Below, piece by piece: positions 14,806-34,654 of a stretch of 38,850 nucleotides of DNA. The notes beneath the pieces were generated by a model. That model ran no database searches, was not told where the DNA came from, and was given only the letters and a program-made list of their open reading frames with translations. The stretch spans positions 646,328-685,177 of the forward strand of contig CP070648.1 of assembly GCA_020354555.1 (NCBI GenBank), written 5' to 3'. This DNA is from Armatimonadota bacterium. Lineage in GTDB: Bacteria; Armatimonadota; Hebobacteria; GCA-020354555; CP070648. Numbering within the stretch: the first letter of the stretch is position 1; each line of letters opens with the position of its first letter. The translations under genes were made by a program, and so were the position numbers.

Positions 14806-16101
14806 TTATTCCTCCTCTTCCCGCTGTGAAAAGACATCGCCGACCAGGTCGGCCACGGTAACGCGCCCCGCGTCCTTCTGTTGATCCATGTAGTCGCGGA
14901 GCTGCTTGCGTTCCTTGTCCTGCTGGACGTGGCGGATGCTCAAGGTCATCCTGCGCTCGGGCGGGCGCATGGCGATGATCTTCGTCTGCACCTCCTGGTC
15001 CACCGCGAGCGACTCCTCGGCCTTGGCGCCCCTGCCCACCTCGGAGTTGGGGATGATGGCCTCGATGCCGCCCTCCAATTGGACGAAGGCGCCGAAGGGC
15101 ACGACGCGCGTGACGCGTCCGGTCACGATGTCGCCGACGCTGTAGTGCTCCGCGACGTGCTGCCATGGGTCGGGGAGGATCTGCTTGAGGCCGAGCGAGA
15201 CCTTGCCCGCGTCGCGGTCGAACTTCAGGATGAGGACTTCGATTTTCTCGCCCGGCTTGACGACGTCGGACGGATGCCGCACGCGCGACCACGACATCTC
15301 CGTCACATGCAGCAGCCCGTCTATGCCACCGAGGTCAACGAAGGCGCCGTAATCCGTCACCCGGCGCACGACGCCCTTGCGCACCTGGCCTTCTTCGAGC
15401 GCCGCCAGCGTCTTCTCGCGCTTCTCCTTCCGCTCTTCTTCGACGGCGAGCCGGTGCGAGACGACGACGCGCTTGCGCGCCCGGTCGACCTCGACGATCT
15501 TCATCTTCAAGGATTGTCCCACGAACCGATCGAGGGCGCGCACGTTGCGGGTCGCGACGTGCGAGGCGGGGAGGAACCCCCGCAGCCCAAGGTCCACCAC
15601 CAGGCCGCCCTTGACGCGGTCGGTCACCATCGCCGACACGGTTCCGCCGTGCTCGTACGCCTTGATGACGCCGCGCCACACGTTCTCGTAGTCGGCCTTG
15701 CGCTTCGACAGCAGCAAGCCGCCCTCCGCGGTCTCGGTTCTGACCACATAGACGTCTATGCGATCGCCGACGGCCAACTGCTGTGAGGGCTCGCCCCGCT
15801 CCCCGGCCAGGTCCGATTGTGGGATCAACCCCTCGGACTTGGTGCCCACATCCACGAGCACCCCCTGGTCGTCCACATGCACCACGAGGCCGCTGACGAT
15901 ATCGCCGGACTTCAGGGGCGAGATGGCGGAGTCGTAATGGGGCTCGTGAGGCGAAGACGGTGGGGCATCATCCGTCTGAGCGTTCTCGTCGGCGGCGGGG
16001 GAAGCTCCCTGCTCGCCGGCTTGAGCCTGCGCTTCAGGCTCGTCACTGTCCTGTGCAGCCGTCTCGTCGCCGAGCGGCTGCTGCTCGTTAGACCAAGACA
16101 T
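14806..16101 (-). CDS. rpsA: S1 RNA-binding domain protein, ribosomal protein S1 type
   Basis: Four S1 OB-fold domains are visible at about residues 64-134, 152-218, 236-307 and 321-391. The third is the most typical (GVVRRVTDYGAFVDLGGIDGLLHVTEMSW). Ribosomal protein S1 binds mRNA and helps the 30S subunit start translation. E. coli S1 has six domains; four-domain forms are usual in many other phyla. The first 55 residues are acidic and low in complexity (rich in Gln, Ala, Glu, Asp), which is unusual for this family. The C-terminal 40 residues are charged. The ATG at 16101 has an AGGAG site six nt upstream. coaE follows directly. A four-domain RNA-binding relative that is not ribosomal cannot be excluded. 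Confidence 0.88.
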   Translation of the reverse strand: MSWSNEQQPLGDETAAQDSDEPEAQAQAGEQGASPAADENAQTDDAPPSSPHEPHYDSAISPLKSGDIVSGLVVHVDDQGVLVDVGTKSEGLIPQSDLAGERGEPSQQLAVGDRIDVYVVRTETAEGGLLLSKRKADYENVWRGVIKAYEHGGTVSAMVTDRVKGGLVVDLGLRGFLPASHVATRNVRALDRFVGQSLKMKIVEVDRARKRVVVSHRLAVEEERKEKREKTLAALEEGQVRKGVVRRVTDYGAFVDLGGIDGLLHVTEMSWSRVRHPSDVVKPGEKIEVLILKFDRDAGKVSLGLKQILPDPWQHVAEHYSVGDIVTGRVTRVVPFGAFVQLEGGIEAIIPNSEVGRGAKAEESLAVDQEVQTKIIAMRPPERRMTLSIRHVQQDKERKQLRDYMDQQKDAGRVTVADLVGDVFSQREEEE

Positions 16102-16622
16102 GATTGTCTCCTAACGCGGTGTACGCGTTTGCGGCAGGCGCACGCCGATCGGCGCTGCGCGATGCCCTTGATGGTCCGGGCGCATGGCGGGCCTGACTTG
16201 GCGCGCACTCCGCGACGCCCTTGGTATTCCCCCCACACGTATTAGTTAAACTCATTCAGGGCCACACACGGTCGCCCGGCTTCTCGCCCATGCGCGACGA
16301 CAGCGGCGCGCCGTGCCGGCGTAGTCGCGGGCGAATGGTTATGTCGCCGTCACAGTGCGATCTCGCGCCGGACCTCGGGCGCTCGCGGCGCGAGACGGCC
16401 GCCGGCATGCGCGGCCGGCGACAGACCGATTATTCCACAACCCGCAGTTGGTTGGGCGCGTCAGGTGCAGTCGCGAGGGCTGGCTCGGGTGCAGGGGCGA
16501 CGGGGTTCCAGGCAGTCGGGGCCCCGGTAGTGGATTAGTGCCTGATTGCTTGCTCGACCGCAGGGTCGCTAGAGCAGACGCGGTATTATGCTGTTAGCCT
16601 GTATTATTCATACCTAATGGAA

Positions 16623-16760
16623 TCTCGGCTATGAGAGAAGCGGCCGCGATTCCTCCGCGATCCCGCTGTGCGGGATTCCGGAGTGACGCCAGGCCTCACC
16701 CGGATTCGCGAAAGTAATCCTTCGGCCTGCGGGCCTTGCGGTAGCACGCGAATCCCGTTA
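16623..16760. repeat. Dispersed palindromic repeat, module B copy 1
   Basis: About 138 nt align without gaps to 31339-31476. Over the first 89 nt I count 75 matches. The core has the hairpin ATCCCGC-TGT-GCGGGAT followed by TCCGGAGTGA and GCCAGGCCTC. The left part folds as a weaker stem around TCTCGGCT. The size and stem-loop make-up recall ERIC- or REP-type intergenic repeats, though the sequence itself is not one I recognise. Confidence 0.75.
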
Positions 16761-16813
16761 GGTCGGCGGTATCGTCCTTGCGTGAGCCATAGCCGCTGCC
16801 GGCGGATAATCAT

Positions 16814-16873
16814 AGAGTCTCGGGTATTACCGGGGCACCGGTAATGCCCGCAGACTCTTCCGGACGAGGTTCG
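16814..16873. repeat. Dispersed palindromic repeat, module A copy 1
   Basis: This 60-nt unit matches 31237-31296 at 52 of 60 positions by my count. It is a hairpin: AGAGTCT-CGGGTATTACCGG pairs with CCGGTAATGCCCG-C-AGACTCT, with one bulged C and one wobble. The 3' flank TCCGGACGAGGTTCG is identical in both copies. Confidence 0.78.
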
Positions 16874-17206
16874 GTCGGGAGGAGCGCTACCATCCCTTGC
16901 GTTCTCGCCTAATGCACGAACCTCGGCATATCGCGCCGCGCGCGATTCCGGAGCGCGGCTTGACCGCGCCAATGACTGCCGAGGCGGGCGGTCTGCCCGA
17001 AGCTTGCGCTCGTCATGAATAATCCGGGGCAGAAGCGCAACGTCAAGCGCCATTTGTCGCGATACGCGGTATCGCAGCAAACCTCTGCACTATGGATTCC
17101 GCGCCAGCGGCGGGATTCCTTCTCGGGCGCACCACTTGCCGTGCGGCAACGCGTGGGGGCTAAAGCGCGCCGGCAGGACGCGAACGGGCCCTCGTGCGGG
17201 GCGCAC

Positions 17207-17262: not shown

Positions 17263-17409
17263 GTGAAGAGGACATATCAACCCAAGCGGCGACGCCGCAA
17301 GCGGGTTCACGGATTCCTGCGCCGCATGCGCACTCCGAGCGGTAGAAGGGTGTTGAGAAAACGGCGCCAGAAAGGTCGCACTCGACTGACCGTCGGCCCC
17401 GGCAGGTGA
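17263..17409 (+). CDS. rpmH: 50S ribosomal protein L34
   Basis: This is a 48-residue protein starting with GTG and preceded by GGAGG at 17249-17253. The sequence begins (M)[18 protein letters not shown] and continues with [19 protein letters not shown], the unmistakable L34 signature. L34 is a small basic protein of the large ribosomal subunit. A short GPGR tail extends it slightly beyond the usual 44-46 residues. Its stop codon overlaps the start of rnpA in a GTGA arrangement, the usual coupling of these genes. Confidence 0.97.
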
Positions 17410-17750
17410 CGCGGCTGCACGGGCAGTCCGATTTTCGGCGGGTTATGGAGCGCGGCGAGCGGCACAGCGATCATTTGCTTGCGCTGCGTGCCCTGAGGCG
17501 GGAGGCGGATGGGGGCCCCGATGCGGCGCGCGTGGCGGTTTCCGTGGGCAAGCGGTTCGGGAATGCGGTGGCGCGCAACCGTGTGCGCCGCCGGGTGCGG
17601 GAGTGTACCCGAAGCGCGCTGTCCGACACCCAAGGCGCGTGGGATCTGATCTTCATGCCGCGGGCTGCGGCCCGCGCGACCACATATGATCAACTGCGAG
17701 AATCAGTCTCACGCCTGCTGCGGCGGGCGGGAATCTGCGGTGGCGAGTGA
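17406..17750 (+). CDS. rnpA: Ribonuclease P protein component
   Basis: RnpA is the protein subunit of RNase P, which trims the 5' leader of precursor tRNAs together with the catalytic RNA. The 114 residues carry the family signature [20 protein letters not shown] and the upstream L[11 protein letters not shown] segment. The start is GTG, overlapping the rpmH stop by four bases. The 3' end overlaps yidD. No RNase P RNA gene is in the window. Confidence 0.96.
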
Positions 17751-17976
17751 CGCCGTCCGGGGGGCCGCGGCGCGCAGCGCTGTGGCGGTGTTGAGATGCT
17801 ACCAGCGCTGGATATCGCCGGTGCTCCCGCCGACGTGCCGTTTCCACCCGAGTTGTTCCGAGTACGCTCGCGAAGCGATTGCGAAATACGGCTTTGCCCG
17901 CGGCGGGTGGTTGGCGTTGAAGCGCCTGTGCCGGTGTCATGCGCTGCACCCCGGCGGCTTCGATCCGGTGCAGTGA
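17740..17976 (+). CDS. yidD: Membrane protein insertion efficiency factor YidD
   Basis: I chose the GTG at 17740, which overlaps the end of rnpA by 11 nt and gives 78 residues, the normal size. The conserved core is [20 protein letters not shown] followed by [11 protein letters not shown], and the C-terminal HPGGFDPV is also typical. YidD is a small membrane-associated protein that aids YidC in inserting inner-membrane proteins. The order rnpA-yidD-yidC is the standard one. Confidence 0.95.
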
Positions 17977-18002
17977 GCGCGCGTCACCAGACGAGATAAT
18001 AC

Positions 18003-19325
18003 GTGAAATCACTTCGTTGCCACATCAAGATCAAGCCCGGGGTTGTCGTCATCGCCCTGGTCGTGGGCCTGGGCGGCCTCGTGGCCGGCGGGTGCATGGG
18101 ACGCCCGCAGCGGCCGCTTCCCACCGGCAAGATCGAAGAGCTTGGGGTGATGCTCGAAAGCGTGGACCGGGCGAGCGACCAAAGCGTTCGTGACCAACGT
18201 CACAAGTGGGATGACGAGCTGCGCCAGTTGACGTCGACCCCAAAGCCCGACCCCGTGAAGAAGGCGAGTCTGGAGTTCGCCATCGGGTACGCCTTCGAGT
18301 GCGAGGAGCAGTACCGCGAGGCGATCGACAGCTACGCAGCTGCCGCAAAAGGGCCGCTGCAGGTGCAAGCCCGCTTCCGCATCGGCGAGATCGAACTGTT
18401 GGGCCGGCGAGAGCGTAAGGCTGCGGTAGGGGCGTACAGCCAGGCGGCGATGGCGATGCCGGAGGTGCGGGTGTGGGTGCGCACGGCGCCGGAGACGGCG
18501 CGGCCGGTGGTGGCGGAGGGGTTGGAGTGGCCCTCGGTGCTGGCGTCGGCCGGCGGGGGCAGCCTGCGAATGGAGTCGGCGGCGAAGGCGGCACAGATGC
18601 GCCTCGACCTGCTCCAGCGCGGGGACTGGCGCTACCAGGCGATATCACGCTTCGTGAACCTGCTGGGCGGCGACCATCGTTACTCGCACGCGCTGGCGCT
18701 CCTGCTCATCGCGGTCATCGTGAAACTCGTAACGACCCCCCTGACCAGTTCATCCTTCCGCTCCATTCGCGCGATGCAGAGCCTGCAGCCCCTGATTAAG
18801 GAATTACAGGAGAAGCACAAGGGGGACCGGCAGGCGATGGCCGCCGAGCAAATGCGGCTGTTCAAGAAGCACAAGATCAACCCCCTGGGCGGCTGCCTGC
18901 CGATGCTGATACAGATGCCGATCCTGATCGGGGTGTACCAGGGGATACGCTTCTACATCTACCAACTGGCGAACGCGAAGTTCCTGTGGATCAGTAACCT
19001 GGCGCTGGCAGACACGCCGCTGCTGATCATGTACGCGCTGAGCCTGTACGTGTCGCAGAAGCTGACGGCGATGCCGCAGGCGGACCCGCAGCAGCAGCAA
19101 ATGCAGAACACGATGACGATCATGATGCCGCTGATGTTGACCGTGCTGTTCGCGTCGCTGCCGGCGGCGTTCATACTTTACTGGTTCTTCTACAACATCT
19201 TGATTACCGCCCACCAGTACTACCTGATGCGTCAGCCTCCGCCGGCCTTGGCGCCGGCCAAGGAGGGCGGCGAGGGGCCGCCGGGCAAGGGCAAGGGGCG
19301 TCCGCGGCGCAAGCGGAGGAAGTAG
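18003..19325 (+). CDS. yidC: YidC/Oxa1 membrane insertase with N-terminal TPR-like domain, probable lipoprotein
   Basis: YidC inserts and folds inner-membrane proteins. The insertase core (about residues 212-410) is clear: a first core helix (ALLLIAVIVKLVTTPLTSSS) with Arg253 just after it, the cytoplasmic hairpin QPLIKELQEKHKGDRQAM, then NPLGGCLPMLIQMPILIGVY and further helices up to FILYWFFYNIL. The N-terminus is unusual. It has a signal sequence ending in VAGGC, so Cys31 may be lipidated although the lipobox is imperfect. It is followed by about 170 residues with TPR-like helices (EFAIGYAFECEEQYREAIDS) in place of the large beta-sandwich domain of Gram-negative YidC. The basic tail (KGRPRRKRRK) resembles ribosome-binding tails of other YidC proteins. 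The start is GTG, 26 nt after yidD. Confidence 0.93.
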   Translation: MKSLRCHIKIKPGVVVIALVVGLGGLVAGGCMGRPQRPLPTGKIEELGVMLESVDRASDQSVRDQRHKWDDELRQLTSTPKPDPVKKASLEFAIGYAFECEEQYREAIDSYAAAAKGPLQVQARFRIGEIELLGRRERKAAVGAYSQAAMAMPEVRVWVRTAPETARPVVAEGLEWPSVLASAGGGSLRMESAAKAAQMRLDLLQRGDWRYQAISRFVNLLGGDHRYSHALALLLIAVIVKLVTTPLTSSSFRSIRAMQSLQPLIKELQEKHKGDRQAMAAEQMRLFKKHKINPLGGCLPMLIQMPILIGVYQGIRFYIYQLANAKFLWISNLALADTPLLIMYALSLYVSQKLTAMPQADPQQQQMQNTMTIMMPLMLTVLFASLPAAFILYWFFYNILITAHQYYLMRQPPPALAPAKEGGEGPPGKGKGRPRRKRRK

Positions 19326-19421
19326 CGGATAACGGCGCGCCTCGGCACCGGCAGGGCGGCACCGGTCGTCGGCCGGTGATGATCGCCACCGAGCGCGCGC
19401 GAACGTCGGGGGATATCGTAC

Positions 19422-20216
19422 ATGGTATCGATCGAGAAGACGGCGAAGACGGCTGAGGAAGCTATCGAACTGGCGCTAGCGGAGCTCGGCGTACCGCGCG
19501 ACCGCGTCGAGGTGGAGGTGCTGGAGGAAGGGCGGGCTCTGTTCGGCATCCTGGGGTCAGCGCAGGCGCGGGTGCGGGTGACGGCGGAAACGACGATTGG
19601 CGAGCGGGCGTCGCAGGTGTTGGCGGAGATGTTGCAGCACATGGGCCTGGAGGCGACGCCCGAGGTGACGGAGGAAGACGACACGCAGGCGATCATAGAC
19701 ATTCGCGGCGAAGACCTCGGCCTCCTCATCGGCAAGCACGGGCAGACGCTGGCTGCGGTTCAGCATCTGGTGGGCTTGATGGCCAATCGGGGCGAGGAGA
19801 ACCGCAAGCGCATCATCCTGGACGCGGAGGGCTATCGCGAACGGCGCGAGGAGTCGCTGCGTCACCTCGCCATCGCGTCGGCGCGCAAGGCCAAGCAATC
19901 GGGAGAGGCGATCACCCTCGATCCGCTGCTGCCGCACGAGCGCAGAATCATCCACACCACGCTCGCGGATGATGCCGACGTCATGACGCGCAGCGTCGGC
20001 GAAGATCCGACGCGGCGCATTGTCATCGAGCCGCGCGGCGGCCGGTCCGGGGATTCCCGGCGACGCGAGCAGCCCGCGTTCGAGGAGCCTGAGGGGGAGG
20101 AACAATCCACCGCCGCCACGGACGGGTTCGACGCCGAGCGGGACCGGCCGGCCGCCGACAGCGCCGGAACAGAGGACGACGACGGCGAGATGCCCTCGGG
20201 CGAGCAGGAATCGTAG
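19422..20216 (+). CDS. jag: Jag/KhpB RNA-binding protein
   Basis: Jag (KhpB, SpoIIIJ-associated) binds RNA and is almost always found beside yidC. Three parts are visible: the Jag-N domain (residues 1-50, KTAEEAIELALAELGV), a KH domain with the GxxG-type loop LLIGKHGQTL at 101-110, and an R3H domain with PHERRIIH at 171-178. The last 60 residues are acidic and low in complexity, longer than in most homologues. The ATG at 19422 is preceded by a GGGGGA-type purine stretch. The gap to yidC is 96 nt. Confidence 0.94.
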   Translation: MVSIEKTAKTAEEAIELALAELGVPRDRVEVEVLEEGRALFGILGSAQARVRVTAETTIGERASQVLAEMLQHMGLEATPEVTEEDDTQAIIDIRGEDLGLLIGKHGQTLAAVQHLVGLMANRGEENRKRIILDAEGYRERREESLRHLAIASARKAKQSGEAITLDPLLPHERRIIHTTLADDADVMTRSVGEDPTRRIVIEPRGGRSGDSRRREQPAFEEPEGEEQSTAATDGFDAERDRPAADSAGTEDDDGEMPSGEQES

Positions 20217-31067: not shown

Positions 31068-31236
31068 GGTCCGCGCGGCGGTGCGCGAAGCATGCGCGAG
31101 TGCTTCCGGCGCGCCAGTACCCGGCAGGAAGCCGCGTCGCCGATCCGGAAGTACAACAGTCGCCGCGGGGCTGCCTCTGAAGGCCCCTTCGCGGCCGTCT
31201 TGGGAGCATCGCCGTCAATCGGCAGCCCATGCCTGC

Positions 31237-31296
31237 AGAGTCTCGGGTGCTACCACAGCGCGGGTAATACCCGCAGACTCTTCCGGACGAGGTTCG
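31237..31296. repeat. Dispersed palindromic repeat, module A copy 2
   Basis: It matches 16814-16873 at 52 of 60 positions. The outer arms AGAGTCT and AGACTCT and the 26-nt right flank are unchanged, while most differences fall in the loop region. That pattern fits selection for the stem. Confidence 0.78.
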
Positions 31297-31338
31297 TTTT
31301 GGGCGCCGCCGCGGTCCCCGGCGTCCTTCCGCGTAGAG

Positions 31339-31476
31339 TCTCGGCTCTCAGAGAAGCAGCCGAGACTTGTCCGTGATCCTGCTGTGCGGGATTCCGGAGT
31401 GAGGCCAGGCCTCGCCAGGGTTCGTGAGCGTGGTGCCGTAGCCTGCCGGCCCCGCAGTAATACACGAACCCCATCA
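31339..31476. repeat. Dispersed palindromic repeat, module B copy 2
   Basis: It aligns to 16623-16760 without gaps. Its left part holds a perfect stem, AGTCTCGGCT pairing with AGCCGAGACT (about 31337-31367), around an 11-nt loop. The second hairpin around CTGTGCGGGATTCCGGAGTGA is shared with copy 1. Confidence 0.75.
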
Positions 31477-31705
31477 ATGCACGGACCTCGTGAGGTGATA
31501 CGGGCGTGGTTGATGTCCCTGCGAGTCGATGCCGTTCCTGCGCTGCGGGAGTCGGCCTCGGCTTTCGCTGCTGTCCTCACGGCTTGGCGAAGGTCGGCCC
31601 GCTCTTGCCTCACGAGTTTCTTCCGAGCACCCGCACATTGCCCGGCAGCGCGGTCTCGACGACGGTCGCTGTTGCGGCGAAGGCGCCGATAGGTTATCGG
31701 TCGGA

Positions 31706-31768: not shown

Positions 31769-34654
31769 ATGATGAGATTCGCCATTCTGGTGCTTTGCTG
31801 TTCGGTCATCGCGGCTCTGTGTATCACGCCGGCGCTAGGGGGCCAGGAGGTGCCGGTCAGTGTGACGTCCGCGACCGAGGCCTTTCCGCGGGTCTTCGGC
31901 GACACCGTGGTGTGGGGGGAGTATGGCAGCACCGGCTACGACGTCTATGCCAAGAGCCTGCGCACGGGCGCAACCACCGTCGTCGCCGCGGCGCCGGAGA
32001 GCCAGCAGCGCCCGGAGATCTGGGGCAGTCGGATCGTGTGGGAGGACTTCCGCAACGGGGATCCGGACATTTACATGTACGACCTGGCGACGGCGACGGA
32101 GACCGTGGTCTGCGGCGATGTTGCCCCCCAGTACCATCCTGCCATCTTCGGCAACCGCGTTGTCTGGCAAGACTACCGCAGCGGCAACTGGGACGTCTAC
32201 ATGTACGACCTCGCCGCGGGCGTCGAGACGCCGATTTGCACAGCGGCGAGTGATCAAGCGGATCCGGTGATCTGGGGCCATCGTATCGTGTGGCGCGACA
32301 CGCGCAACGGCAACTGGGATGTCTACATGTACGACCTCGCGACGGCGGCGGAGACGCCGATCTGCACGGATCCGACGACCCAAGCGGGGATCGCGATCTT
32401 CGGCGATCGCATCGTGTGGGAGGACCTGCGGAACGGCAACTGGGACATCTATATGTACGACCTGATGACGGCGACCGAAAGTGCGGTCTGCGTCAACCCG
32501 GCACAGCAGTATGACCCCGAGATCTGCGGCGACCGCATCGTGTGGGCGGATCAGCGCAACGGCAACATGGATGTCTACATGCACGATCTCACGGCGGATG
32601 CGGAGACCCAGGTCTGCGGCGACTCGGCCGACCAGTACAATCCGTCCATCTTCGGCGATCGCATCGCATGGCAGGATATGCGCAATCCCAGCATGGACAT
32701 CTACATGTACGACATCGACCCGTCATGGGGGGAACTGCAGATCAGCGAGCTTGTGACTCACGAGCGCTTGCCGTCCATCTCGGGCCACCGCGTCGTGGAG
32801 GAGGACTACTATTACGGCTTCTCCGATACCGACATCTGCATGTACGATCTGCCGAGCCGCACGTTCACCCACTGGTGGCGGTCGCAGCGCCAGTGCTATC
32901 CCGTGATATGGGATACCAGAATTGCGTGGCAAGACAACGGGGCGGGGAACTGGGACATCTACATGCGCGACCTCGTCAGCGGGAGCGTGAGTTCAGTGTG
33001 CACCGACGCGGCGGATCAGACGCGGCCGGCGATATTCGGCGACCGCGTGGTGTGGGAGGACGCGCGCGGCACCGACGTTGACATCTACATGTACGACTTG
33101 ACGGGGGGAAGCGAAAGCCCGATCTGCACCGCGACCGGCGACCAACTCAACCCGGTCATCTGGGGCGACCGCATCGTATGGCAGGACTACCGCGCAGGCA
33201 ACGGCGACATCTACATGTACGACCTGGCGACTGCCACCGAGATGCCCATCTGCACGAATGCCGCGCACCAGGAGCACCCCGCCATCTGGGGCGACCTGAT
33301 CGTGTGGCAAGATCTGCGCAACGGCAGTTGGGACATCTACATGTACGACCTGGCCACCGGCACCGAGACGCCGGTCAGCACGGCGGCGGCCGGCCAGACC
33401 AGCCCCGCTGTGTGGGGCGACCGCATCGTGTGGTCTGACGCGCGCAAGGGCAACTGGGACATCTACATGTACGACCTGGCGGCGGGCGCCGAGATGCCGA
33501 TCTGCGCGGCGACCGGGAACCAGGGGCTGTGCGCGATCTGGGGCGACCGCATCATATGGGAGGACTATCGCAACGGGAACGCCGACATCTACATGACGAA
33601 ATGGCCCGCGGCGTATTTCGGCAACATCGCGGGGCAGGTGCGCGTACGCGGCACGACGACCAACATCGAGGGCGCGCGCGTGGAGCTGTACCGCGACAGC
33701 CTTCTCAAATACACAGCATCGACGAACACCAACGGTCTCTACAATCTTCAGGAGGTAGCGGCCGGGGCCTACGTAGTGAAGGTGTCCGGGACGGGCTTTG
33801 TCACGCAGACGAAGGCCGGCGTCGTGATCGCGATCGGCGATACGACATACGTCAACTTCAATCTGACGGCGTCCGGGCGGCTCATGGGCCAGGTGCGCAT
33901 CCGCGGCACGACGGTGAACCTCGAGAACGCCGGCGTGTGCGCGTATCTGAACGGCCTCGAGCACGCGCTGACGTCGACCGACAGCAACGGGATCTACGTC
34001 ATTGACACCGACCTGCCGACGGGCGAGTACATGATGACCTGCGTCAAGCCCGGCTACGAGCGGCAACTGAAGGCCGGCATTGCCGTGACCTCGGGCGCGA
34101 CGACGTACGTCAACTTCAACCTGCGGTGGGTGGCGGTGAAGGGGCAGGTCAAGGATACGGGCACGGGCCTGCCGCTGATCGGCGCGGCGGTGGAGATCCG
34201 CGATGGGGATACCGTCATCGCCAACGCGACGACCACAGCGCCGTACGGCGTGTACGAGATAGACACCGCGCCCGCGCCGGGCACGTACACCGCGATCGCG
34301 CGCAAGGCCGGTTACGTGCGGCAGACGAAAACCGGCGTCGCGGTCAGCTACGGCACGACCGCGTACGTCAACTTCAACCTGCCGCGGTCGGGCACGCTCA
34401 GGGGGCAGGTCAAGGATAAGGTGGCGAACACGCCGCTCGTCGGGGCGACGGTGGTCGCGCGCAAGGACGGCATCGTGTGGGCGACGGCGACGACCGGCGC
34501 GCCGTGGGGTATCTACGAGATGGACAGCGACCTGCCGGCGGGGACCTACGTCGTTGGTGCGAGCAAAGCGGGCTACCTGGGTCAGACCAGGAAGGACATT
34601 CCCGTCACTGCGGGCGCGACGACGTACGTCAATTTCTTCCTGCAGCCGCAGTAG
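31769..34654 (+). CDS. Secreted protein with 14 beta-propeller blades and four regulatory-like beta domains
   Basis: The ATG at 31769 (or the adjacent one at 31772) follows AGGAGGAAGG and starts a signal peptide (MRFAILVLCCSVIAALCITP). Fourteen tandem repeats of about 42 residues follow (about 38-615), each with a core like GDRIVWQDYRNGNWDIYMYD. They resemble TolB/WD40-like propeller blades known from secreted proteins of Methanosarcina and some bacteria. At DNA level the unit is 126 bp, spread over 31895-33605. Blades 7-9 are the most diverged. Fourteen blades would suit two seven-bladed propellers. The rest (about 620-961) consists of four carboxypeptidase-regulatory-like beta domains of about 85 residues, each ending in TTYVNFNL-like strands. 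No catalytic motif or membrane anchor is seen. A role in surface binding is plausible but unproven. Confidence 0.85.
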   Translation: MMRFAILVLCCSVIAALCITPALGGQEVPVSVTSATEAFPRVFGDTVVWGEYGSTGYDVYAKSLRTGATTVVAAAPESQQRPEIWGSRIVWEDFRNGDPDIYMYDLATATETVVCGDVAPQYHPAIFGNRVVWQDYRSGNWDVYMYDLAAGVETPICTAASDQADPVIWGHRIVWRDTRNGNWDVYMYDLATAAETPICTDPTTQAGIAIFGDRIVWEDLRNGNWDIYMYDLMTATESAVCVNPAQQYDPEICGDRIVWADQRNGNMDVYMHDLTADAETQVCGDSADQYNPSIFGDRIAWQDMRNPSMDIYMYDIDPSWGELQISELVTHERLPSISGHRVVEEDYYYGFSDTDICMYDLPSRTFTHWWRSQRQCYPVIWDTRIAWQDNGAGNWDIYMRDLVSGSVSSVCTDAADQTRPAIFGDRVVWEDARGTDVDIYMYDLTGGSESPICTATGDQLNPVIWGDRIVWQDYRAGNGDIYMYDLATATEMPICTNAAHQEHPAIWGDLIVWQDLRNGSWDIYMYDLATGTETPVSTAAAGQTSPAVWGDRIVWSDARKGNWDIYMYDLAAGAEMPICAATGNQGLCAIWGDRIIWEDYRNGNADIYMTKWPAAYFGNIAGQVRVRGTTTNIEGARVELYRDSLLKYTASTNTNGLYNLQEVAAGAYVVKVSGTGFVTQTKAGVVIAIGDTTYVNFNLTASGRLMGQVRIRGTTVNLENAGVCAYLNGLEHALTSTDSNGIYVIDTDLPTGEYMMTCVKPGYERQLKAGIAVTSGATTYVNFNLRWVAVKGQVKDTGTGLPLIGAAVEIRDGDTVIANATTTAPYGVYEIDTAPAPGTYTAIARKAGYVRQTKTGVAVSYGTTAYVNFNLPRSGTLRGQVKDKVANTPLVGATVVARKDGIVWATATTGAPWGIYEMDSDLPAGTYVVGASKAGYLGQTRKDIPVTAGATTYVNFFLQPQ
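31895..33605 (+). repeat. Tandem 126-bp coding repeats
   Basis: Fourteen in-frame units encode the propeller blades. The stretch around GACATCTACATGTACGACCT recurs nearly unchanged in most of them. Blade starts fall at about 32023, 32149, 32275, 32401 and 32527, an exact 126-nt period. Such similarity allows gain or loss of blades by recombination. Confidence 0.8.

Follow-up and report, generated by a model that had tools for sequence, protein, structure and literature searches.

Two sets of palindromic repeats, modules A and B, stand in the order B-A at one site of a bacterial chromosome and in the order A-B at another, which raises the question of what kind of element they are and how the two arrangements arose. 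The repeats lie in a stretch of 38,850 nucleotides (the whole of which we refer to as the window; G000:C1:646328-685177) from a single-contig Armatimonadota genome of 4,875,725 bp (4.88 Mb); the top relatives of one window protein come from Armatimonadetes MAGs, at 66% identity. A first interpretation made without database searches (the sequence-only reading) had described a mobile or recombining REP/ERIC-like family.

According to Pfam matches, the cluster at 16.6 kb has an S1-domain gene (14806-16101, minus strand) on one side and the rpmH-rnpA-yidC-jag genes (17263-20216, plus strand) on the other. The YidC/Oxa1-like protein encoded at 18003-19325 (plus strand) has a 60KD_IMP domain at residues 231-410 (Pfam), and the approximately 230 residues N-terminal to that domain look, by eye, like a lipoprotein signal and tetratricopeptide-like helices. 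Near the second site, at 31.2 kb, the gene of a beta-propeller-like secreted protein contains tandem repeats of approximately 126 bp (31990-33620) that are 64-78% alike; the protein has four carboxypeptidase-regulatory-like domains in its C-terminal part (Pfam).

Element A is a dispersed 114-bp unit with two hairpins

Comparison of the window with itself by blastn recovered both repeats, which are thus real: 16814-16873 matched 31237-31296 (module A; 86.7% over 60 bp, E 1e-13) and 16620-16756 matched 31336-31472 (module B; 76.6% over 137 bp, E 7e-23). When the 421-bp cluster was used as a blastn query against its own genome we obtained 48 matches, concentrated at query positions 210-324, which argues that the true unit is larger than the 60-nt module A. 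In particular, alignment of 27 copies chosen by hand from the 48 matches (129 columns; L002, L027, L030 and weaker matches were excluded) gave a consensus of two hairpins with a conserved TTCCGGAC linker between them. Element A is this 114-bp unit and module A is its 5' hairpin; what had been taken for a separate 15-nt piece after the module (TTCCGGACGAGGTTCG) is A continuing through the linker into the start of the second hairpin. The window copy of A lies at 16813..16926 (plus strand), as placed by covariance model and alignment, with hairpins GAGTCTCGGG..CCCGCAGACTC and CGAGGTTCG..CGAACCTCG.

The sequence-only reading had allowed that its repeats might have no more copies in the genome, or might all stem from one recent segmental duplication. 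Neither turned out to be the case. A covariance-model search found 47 copies of A in the genome at E below 1e-6, all of which were recovered again from the fetched loci, and duplications cover only the pairs L067/L071 and L037/L075, in each of which the outer flanks are common to both members. The copies are dispersed and intergenic, with sharp ends. Pairwise identity among the 27 aligned copies ranges from 71 to 96% (mean 83%), which argues that the spread of A was not very recent.

We examined the flanks of the 37 copies whose two ends we judged to be intact. (Left out were ten copies: L061, L067, L071, L027, L064 and L069, which are nested or interrupted; L070 and L075, which are cut; and L073 and L077, which have diverged ends.) TA was found at the left boundary of 24 of the 37 copies, at the right boundary of 33 and at both of 23, compared to a background TA frequency of 1.8%. 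The left TA is preceded by C or T in 33/37 copies and the right TA followed by A or G in 35/37, with no conservation apparent outside YTA/TAR in these copies. Among the ten left out, inspection by eye indicated that the left TA is kept in L064, L069, L070 and L073, and that L077 has no TA at either end; L070, L071 and L075 adjoin masked N. The window copy itself is flanked by CA on both sides (16811-16812 and 16927-16928), each probably a decayed TA. (Note that many coordinates of decayed TAs were placed by eye.) The ends of the A consensus are inverted repeats, identical at 15 of 20 positions. A is thus an element of about 114 bp that is multi-copy and dispersed, has terminal inverted repeats and contains no transposase, as is typical of MITEs of the RUP/Correia/ERIC type. 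A further hallmark of these, TA at both termini with a target duplication, is seen in the A flanks and in the three nested 2-bp gains described below, with one TA usually decayed.

Three further families accompany element A

Beside A, the genome contains families B (approximately 140 bp), D (49-171 bp) and E (approximately 165 bp). The ends of D, CCTGGATTATTCATACC and CCCGGATTATTCATGAC, face each other as terminal inverted repeats; the D-end pattern occurs at 48 sites in the genome, compared to none for a reversed-pattern control, and D itself at 33 places. A 9-bp inverted pair, ATTATTCAT/ATGAATAAT, had been said to bracket only this cluster. The pair is indeed present at 16603/17015 and within the window is confined to the cluster; it is, however, the terminal inverted repeat of D, whose type of end is found at 48 places genome-wide. 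TA precedes 15 of the 30 D ends that were read, and several of the rest are an internal copy of the D-end motif. D copies L225 and L216 carry neither B nor A.

In the window, an end-pattern search and blastn of D copies placed a composite D at 16597..17029 (plus strand), with ends CCTGTATTATTCATACC (16598-16614) and GTCATGAATAATCCGGG (17012-17028), TA on its left (16595-16596) and, on its right, a CA (17030-17031) that is presumably a decayed TA. This D carries both A and B. The B element (16617..16758, plus strand) is approximately 142 bp long, has three hairpins and lies within the left arm of D, with TA 16615-16616 on one side and TA 16759-16760 on the other. Along with matches to other copies, it is 77% identical over its full length to the B at 31334-31474, so that the 84-87% identity counted earlier in parts of the repeats holds for A but not for the whole of B. 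We also observed a piece of 45-50 bp (ATCGCGC..GCGCGATTCCGGAGCGCGGCTTGACCGCGCCAATGAC) inside or beside D elements, in L080, L079, L081 and at 16928-16978 of the window; its copies are up to 100% identical and their surroundings differ, and it is possibly a further small unit.

Nested insertion better explains the two repeat orders

At 31.2 kb, B (31334..31474, plus strand) lies inside a second copy of A (L027), at A's own internal TA, within CCCTAATGCACG of the A consensus. The 5' part of this copy (31236..31331, plus strand) comprises module A and most of hairpin 2, and a 3' remnant (ATGCACGGACCTCG...; 31477..31491, plus strand) was read against the A consensus; the dinucleotides next to B (CG at 31332-31333 and CA at 31475-31476) would be decayed duplicates of the TA. 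What had been described as modules in the order A-B is therefore an A element split by B. The orders of A and B do differ between the two sites, as the sequence-only reading stated, but the boundaries that it gave the units did not stand, and in place of recombining modules that swapped their order, nested insertion at TA better explains what we read at 16.6 and 31.2 kb. The same site within A holds B2, a shorter relative of B, in L030, L067 and L071, and a D element in L064.

Copies with and without an insertion allowed empty and filled sites to be compared. At 16.6 kb D holds B on the left and A in the middle; L002 is a D with A but without B, L225 is a D without A, and the window A sits at the same site of D as the A in L002. 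Between the empty site in L225, GGATAATTCATGACTC, and the filled site in L002, GGGTAATCA-[A]-TAATGACTC, two bases were gained, as duplication of TA would give if the left TA had decayed to CA. Similarly, a 2-bp gain separates the empty A site CCTTCCCTAATGCACG from the site filled by B2 in L030, CCTTCCCTA-[B2]-CAATGCACG, and the empty A site CCTTCCCTAATACACG from the site filled by D in L064, CCTTCCCTA-[D]-TGATACACG. All three comparisons fit a 2-bp TA duplication, which is read by position, one of the two TAs having decayed (to CA, TG or CG) in most nested cases. TA at both ends would also be expected from a transposon that carries one TA. (Two other nested cases were not used as empty-site proof: for B in D in the window, the D copies that lack B have 5 nt more at this point, and for A in E, in L041 at genome position 1304108, the filled site exceeds by 2 nt the length that other E copies predict.)

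The composites themselves are found at more than one place. In L030 and L067 the A::B2 composites match at 94.6% identity over 221 bp, up to the outer ends of A and no further, the flanks being different; the D::A composites in the window and in L002 (81% over 273 columns) behave in the same way. Since composites at new places are bounded by the ends of the outer element, D::A and A::B2 appear to have moved as units, as expected if the outer element had transposed. Nested copies of this kind form layers of relative age, by which target duplications can be read without a close relative.

Gene context and hairpins of element A

We used gene calls from a home-made codon-usage heuristic to place the 47 copies of A. 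None lies wholly within a called gene, and five overlap one, by 2, 2, 16, 39 and 77 nt. The copies occupy divergent gaps (17) and tandem gaps (30) but no convergent gap, where 12-17% would be expected, depending on whether bases, gaps or TA or YTAR counts are used (P 2e-4 to 2e-3, against a background of 83 gaps, mostly from the same loci). B, D and E are present in convergent gaps too, and a bias of A towards the 5' side of genes, if real, would thus be its own. The median distance from A to the nearest downstream start is 119 nt; A has the orientation of the nearest downstream gene in 21/47 cases. Of 20 downstream genes that were scanned, 15 had a Pfam match, and no function was common to them.

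Within the hairpins of A, 92.8% of 945 cells pair. Changes on both sides of a pair were found in 25 cells, compared to a mean of 8.8 in shuffles, with most of them in two columns that track subfamilies. The mismatches are symmetric (30 G.T cells versus 33 A.C cells), and so do not point to selection on one RNA strand. Hairpins would be kept in such a strand-symmetric way if the arms of a palindrome were corrected against each other during DNA replication, or if a transposase recognized both arms.

Search for a mobilizing enzyme

No IS630-type transposase was detected in the genome with the DDE_3 model at E 0.001 (controls gave a signal in 3 of 14), and no DDE_Tnp_1 transposase (IS4/IS5 and relatives) was found; the absence of a transposase refers to these two models. 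Nor did the genome yield a DDE transposon sharing these ends, the mark of MITEs derived from IS630/Tc1-mariner elements. A long autonomous copy was likewise not found, in that no gene in the genome lies between two facing A ends or two facing D ends, the longest facing D-end pair being the window composite of approximately 430 bp. Reading of 16 stretches that adjoin ends without, for the most part, a partner showed at least one complete copy of B (L248), four stretches within called genes and some short ends that have diverged. Nine genes next to such ends include no transposase according to Pfam.

The sequence-only reading had pointed to a RAYT-type transposase gene. The genome contains a single Y1_Tnp (RAYT-like) gene, at 4048639 (Pfam match 4e-12), which in L031 (1350-2190) is bracketed on both sides by GGGACAGTCACCTATTT repeats, in the manner of a RAYT flanked by TIRs. 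The repeat that flanks this gene (GGGTAAATTAGGGACAGTCACCTATTT...) is a different and unrelated one, and the RAYT was therefore rejected as the mobilizer. The combination typical of REPs or BIMEs with a RAYT (a hairpin of 20-40 bp, a fixed GTAG tag and a RAYT flanked by the same repeats) does not occur here.

Discussion

The copies of these elements, their ends, their TA flanks and their nesting are directly visible in the genome, as is the absence of the DDE_3 and DDE_Tnp_1 families. Taken with these observations, the cluster is very probably a nest of non-autonomous, TA-targeting, MITE-like mobile elements. Elements A, B, D and E have imperfect terminal inverted repeats and strong internal hairpins, contain no transposase gene and insert at TA (consensus YTAR), so that a TA borders them at either end. 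An enzyme acting in trans, from a TA-specific family such as IS630/Tc1-mariner, may have recognized the ends that A and B share (TATAGAGTCTCG / TATCGAGGTTCG), excised the element and inserted it at a TA; the enzyme and the reaction are modelled on RUP and IS630 as set out in the relevant passages of PMC2229807. At 16.6 kb a D element would have received A and B, and at 31.2 kb an A element would have received B. The source of the transposase might now be lost, have diverged ends or belong to a family outside those searched. In other words, the enzyme responsible for moving A, B, D and E seems to be either gone from this genome or concealed in it.

Several other explanations were weighed. That larger blocks were spread by recombination or segmental duplication, and not by transposition, would account for the common outer flanks of L067/L071 and L037/L075 and for the D::A arrangement common to the window A and L002; the large majority of A copies, however, have unrelated flanks right up to YTA/TAR, and we regard this explanation as scarcely credible. 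Spread as REPs or BIMEs by a RAYT (HUH, Y1), an enzyme that would cut single-stranded hairpins beside a short tag and paste them without duplication, draws on the presence of the Y1_Tnp gene, the wealth of hairpins in A and D and the compensatory changes in the hairpins of A. The unrelated repeat around that gene argues against it, as do the TA-flanked, mutually inverted ends of A, a 2-bp gain that fits three nested sites and hairpins without strand bias. Moreover, no fixed GTAG tag is present, ATAG being commoner. We consider movement by a RAYT distinctly unlikely, and of the sequence-only reading the mobile and ERIC-like parts have held (dispersed intergenic copies, sharp ends, TA termini, nested insertions), whereas the REP/RAYT and recombining-module parts have not.

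The avoidance of convergent gaps by A, its proximity to downstream starts and the excess of double changes could instead be read as the work of selection on a structured RNA, or a cis-regulatory two-hairpin 5' leader, upstream of genes. Against this stand the evenness of G.T and A.C mismatches, the lack of an orientation bias, downstream genes that in our sample share no function, the nesting of copies within each other, the confinement of most double changes to two subfamily-tracking columns and the occurrence of B, D and E in convergent gaps. Rfam, moreover, had no match in the whole window at gathering scores and none at E up to 1 in 16500-17100. An RNA function of A was rejected on the grounds of strand, orientation and downstream genes, and the leader explanation as a whole seems very improbable. 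Somewhat less improbable, yet still doubtful, is that the four TA-targeting hairpin families, in a genome without DDE_3 and DDE_Tnp_1, were moved by an undescribed transposase family that recognizes paired hairpins and favours the 5' side of genes; if true, this would account as well for the double changes that preserve the hairpins and for the absence of A from convergent gaps.

Outside its own genome we found no A. The covariance model detected none in 60 relatives (the nearest genome compared being of another genus of the same family) and none in 290 other Armatimonadota among the 11 candidates scored per genome, a depth at which its own genome (G000) showed 11 of its 47 copies. The exact core of A is absent from GTDB contigs and from IMG/VR, from both of which its own genome was possibly left out, and blastn found nothing in phages and plasmids. 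In the open-licence literature we found no earlier account of MITEs in Armatimonadota; the present analysis documents an ecosystem of TA-targeting, MITE-like elements in a genome of this phylum.

Elements A, B, D and E are a new set of nested TA-targeting MITE-like families, although the kind of element is already known. By analogy, the closest known kind appears to be the TA-terminal bacterial MITEs (RUP, Correia and ERIC), the likeness in each case being one of features. REPs with a GTAG tag and a RAYT share with A that they are palindromic and multi-copy, and a RAYT-like gene is present in this genome; as defined in the passages of PMC3733652 that concern them, however, REPs are 20-40 bp long with GTAG at one end, whereas A is 114 bp long with TA and inverted ends, and the repeats flanking the RAYT-like gene differ from it. 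RUP of pneumococcus (107 bp), in the account in Delihas 2007 (PMC2229807) as far as its sections on RUP go, resembles A in a length of about 100 bp, inverted ends, a TA target, intergenic location, a copy number of the order of 50-100 and the lack of its own transposase; it differs in that its ends are common to IS630-Spn1 of the same genome, whereas no DDE_3 was detected in the Armatimonadota genome. The Correia/NEMIS elements of Neisseria, from another phylum, share TA termini with target duplication and have size classes of approximately 107 and 155 bp (according to the same sections of PMC2229807); they lie mostly just upstream of genes, as far as the relevant part of PMC10969869 describes them, a placement that A may share. 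ERIC/IRU of enterobacteria (127 bp) is, in the part of PMC2229807 devoted to it, an intergenic palindromic element of similar size with TA termini; unlike ERIC/IRU, several different families here use the TA target and nest in one another.
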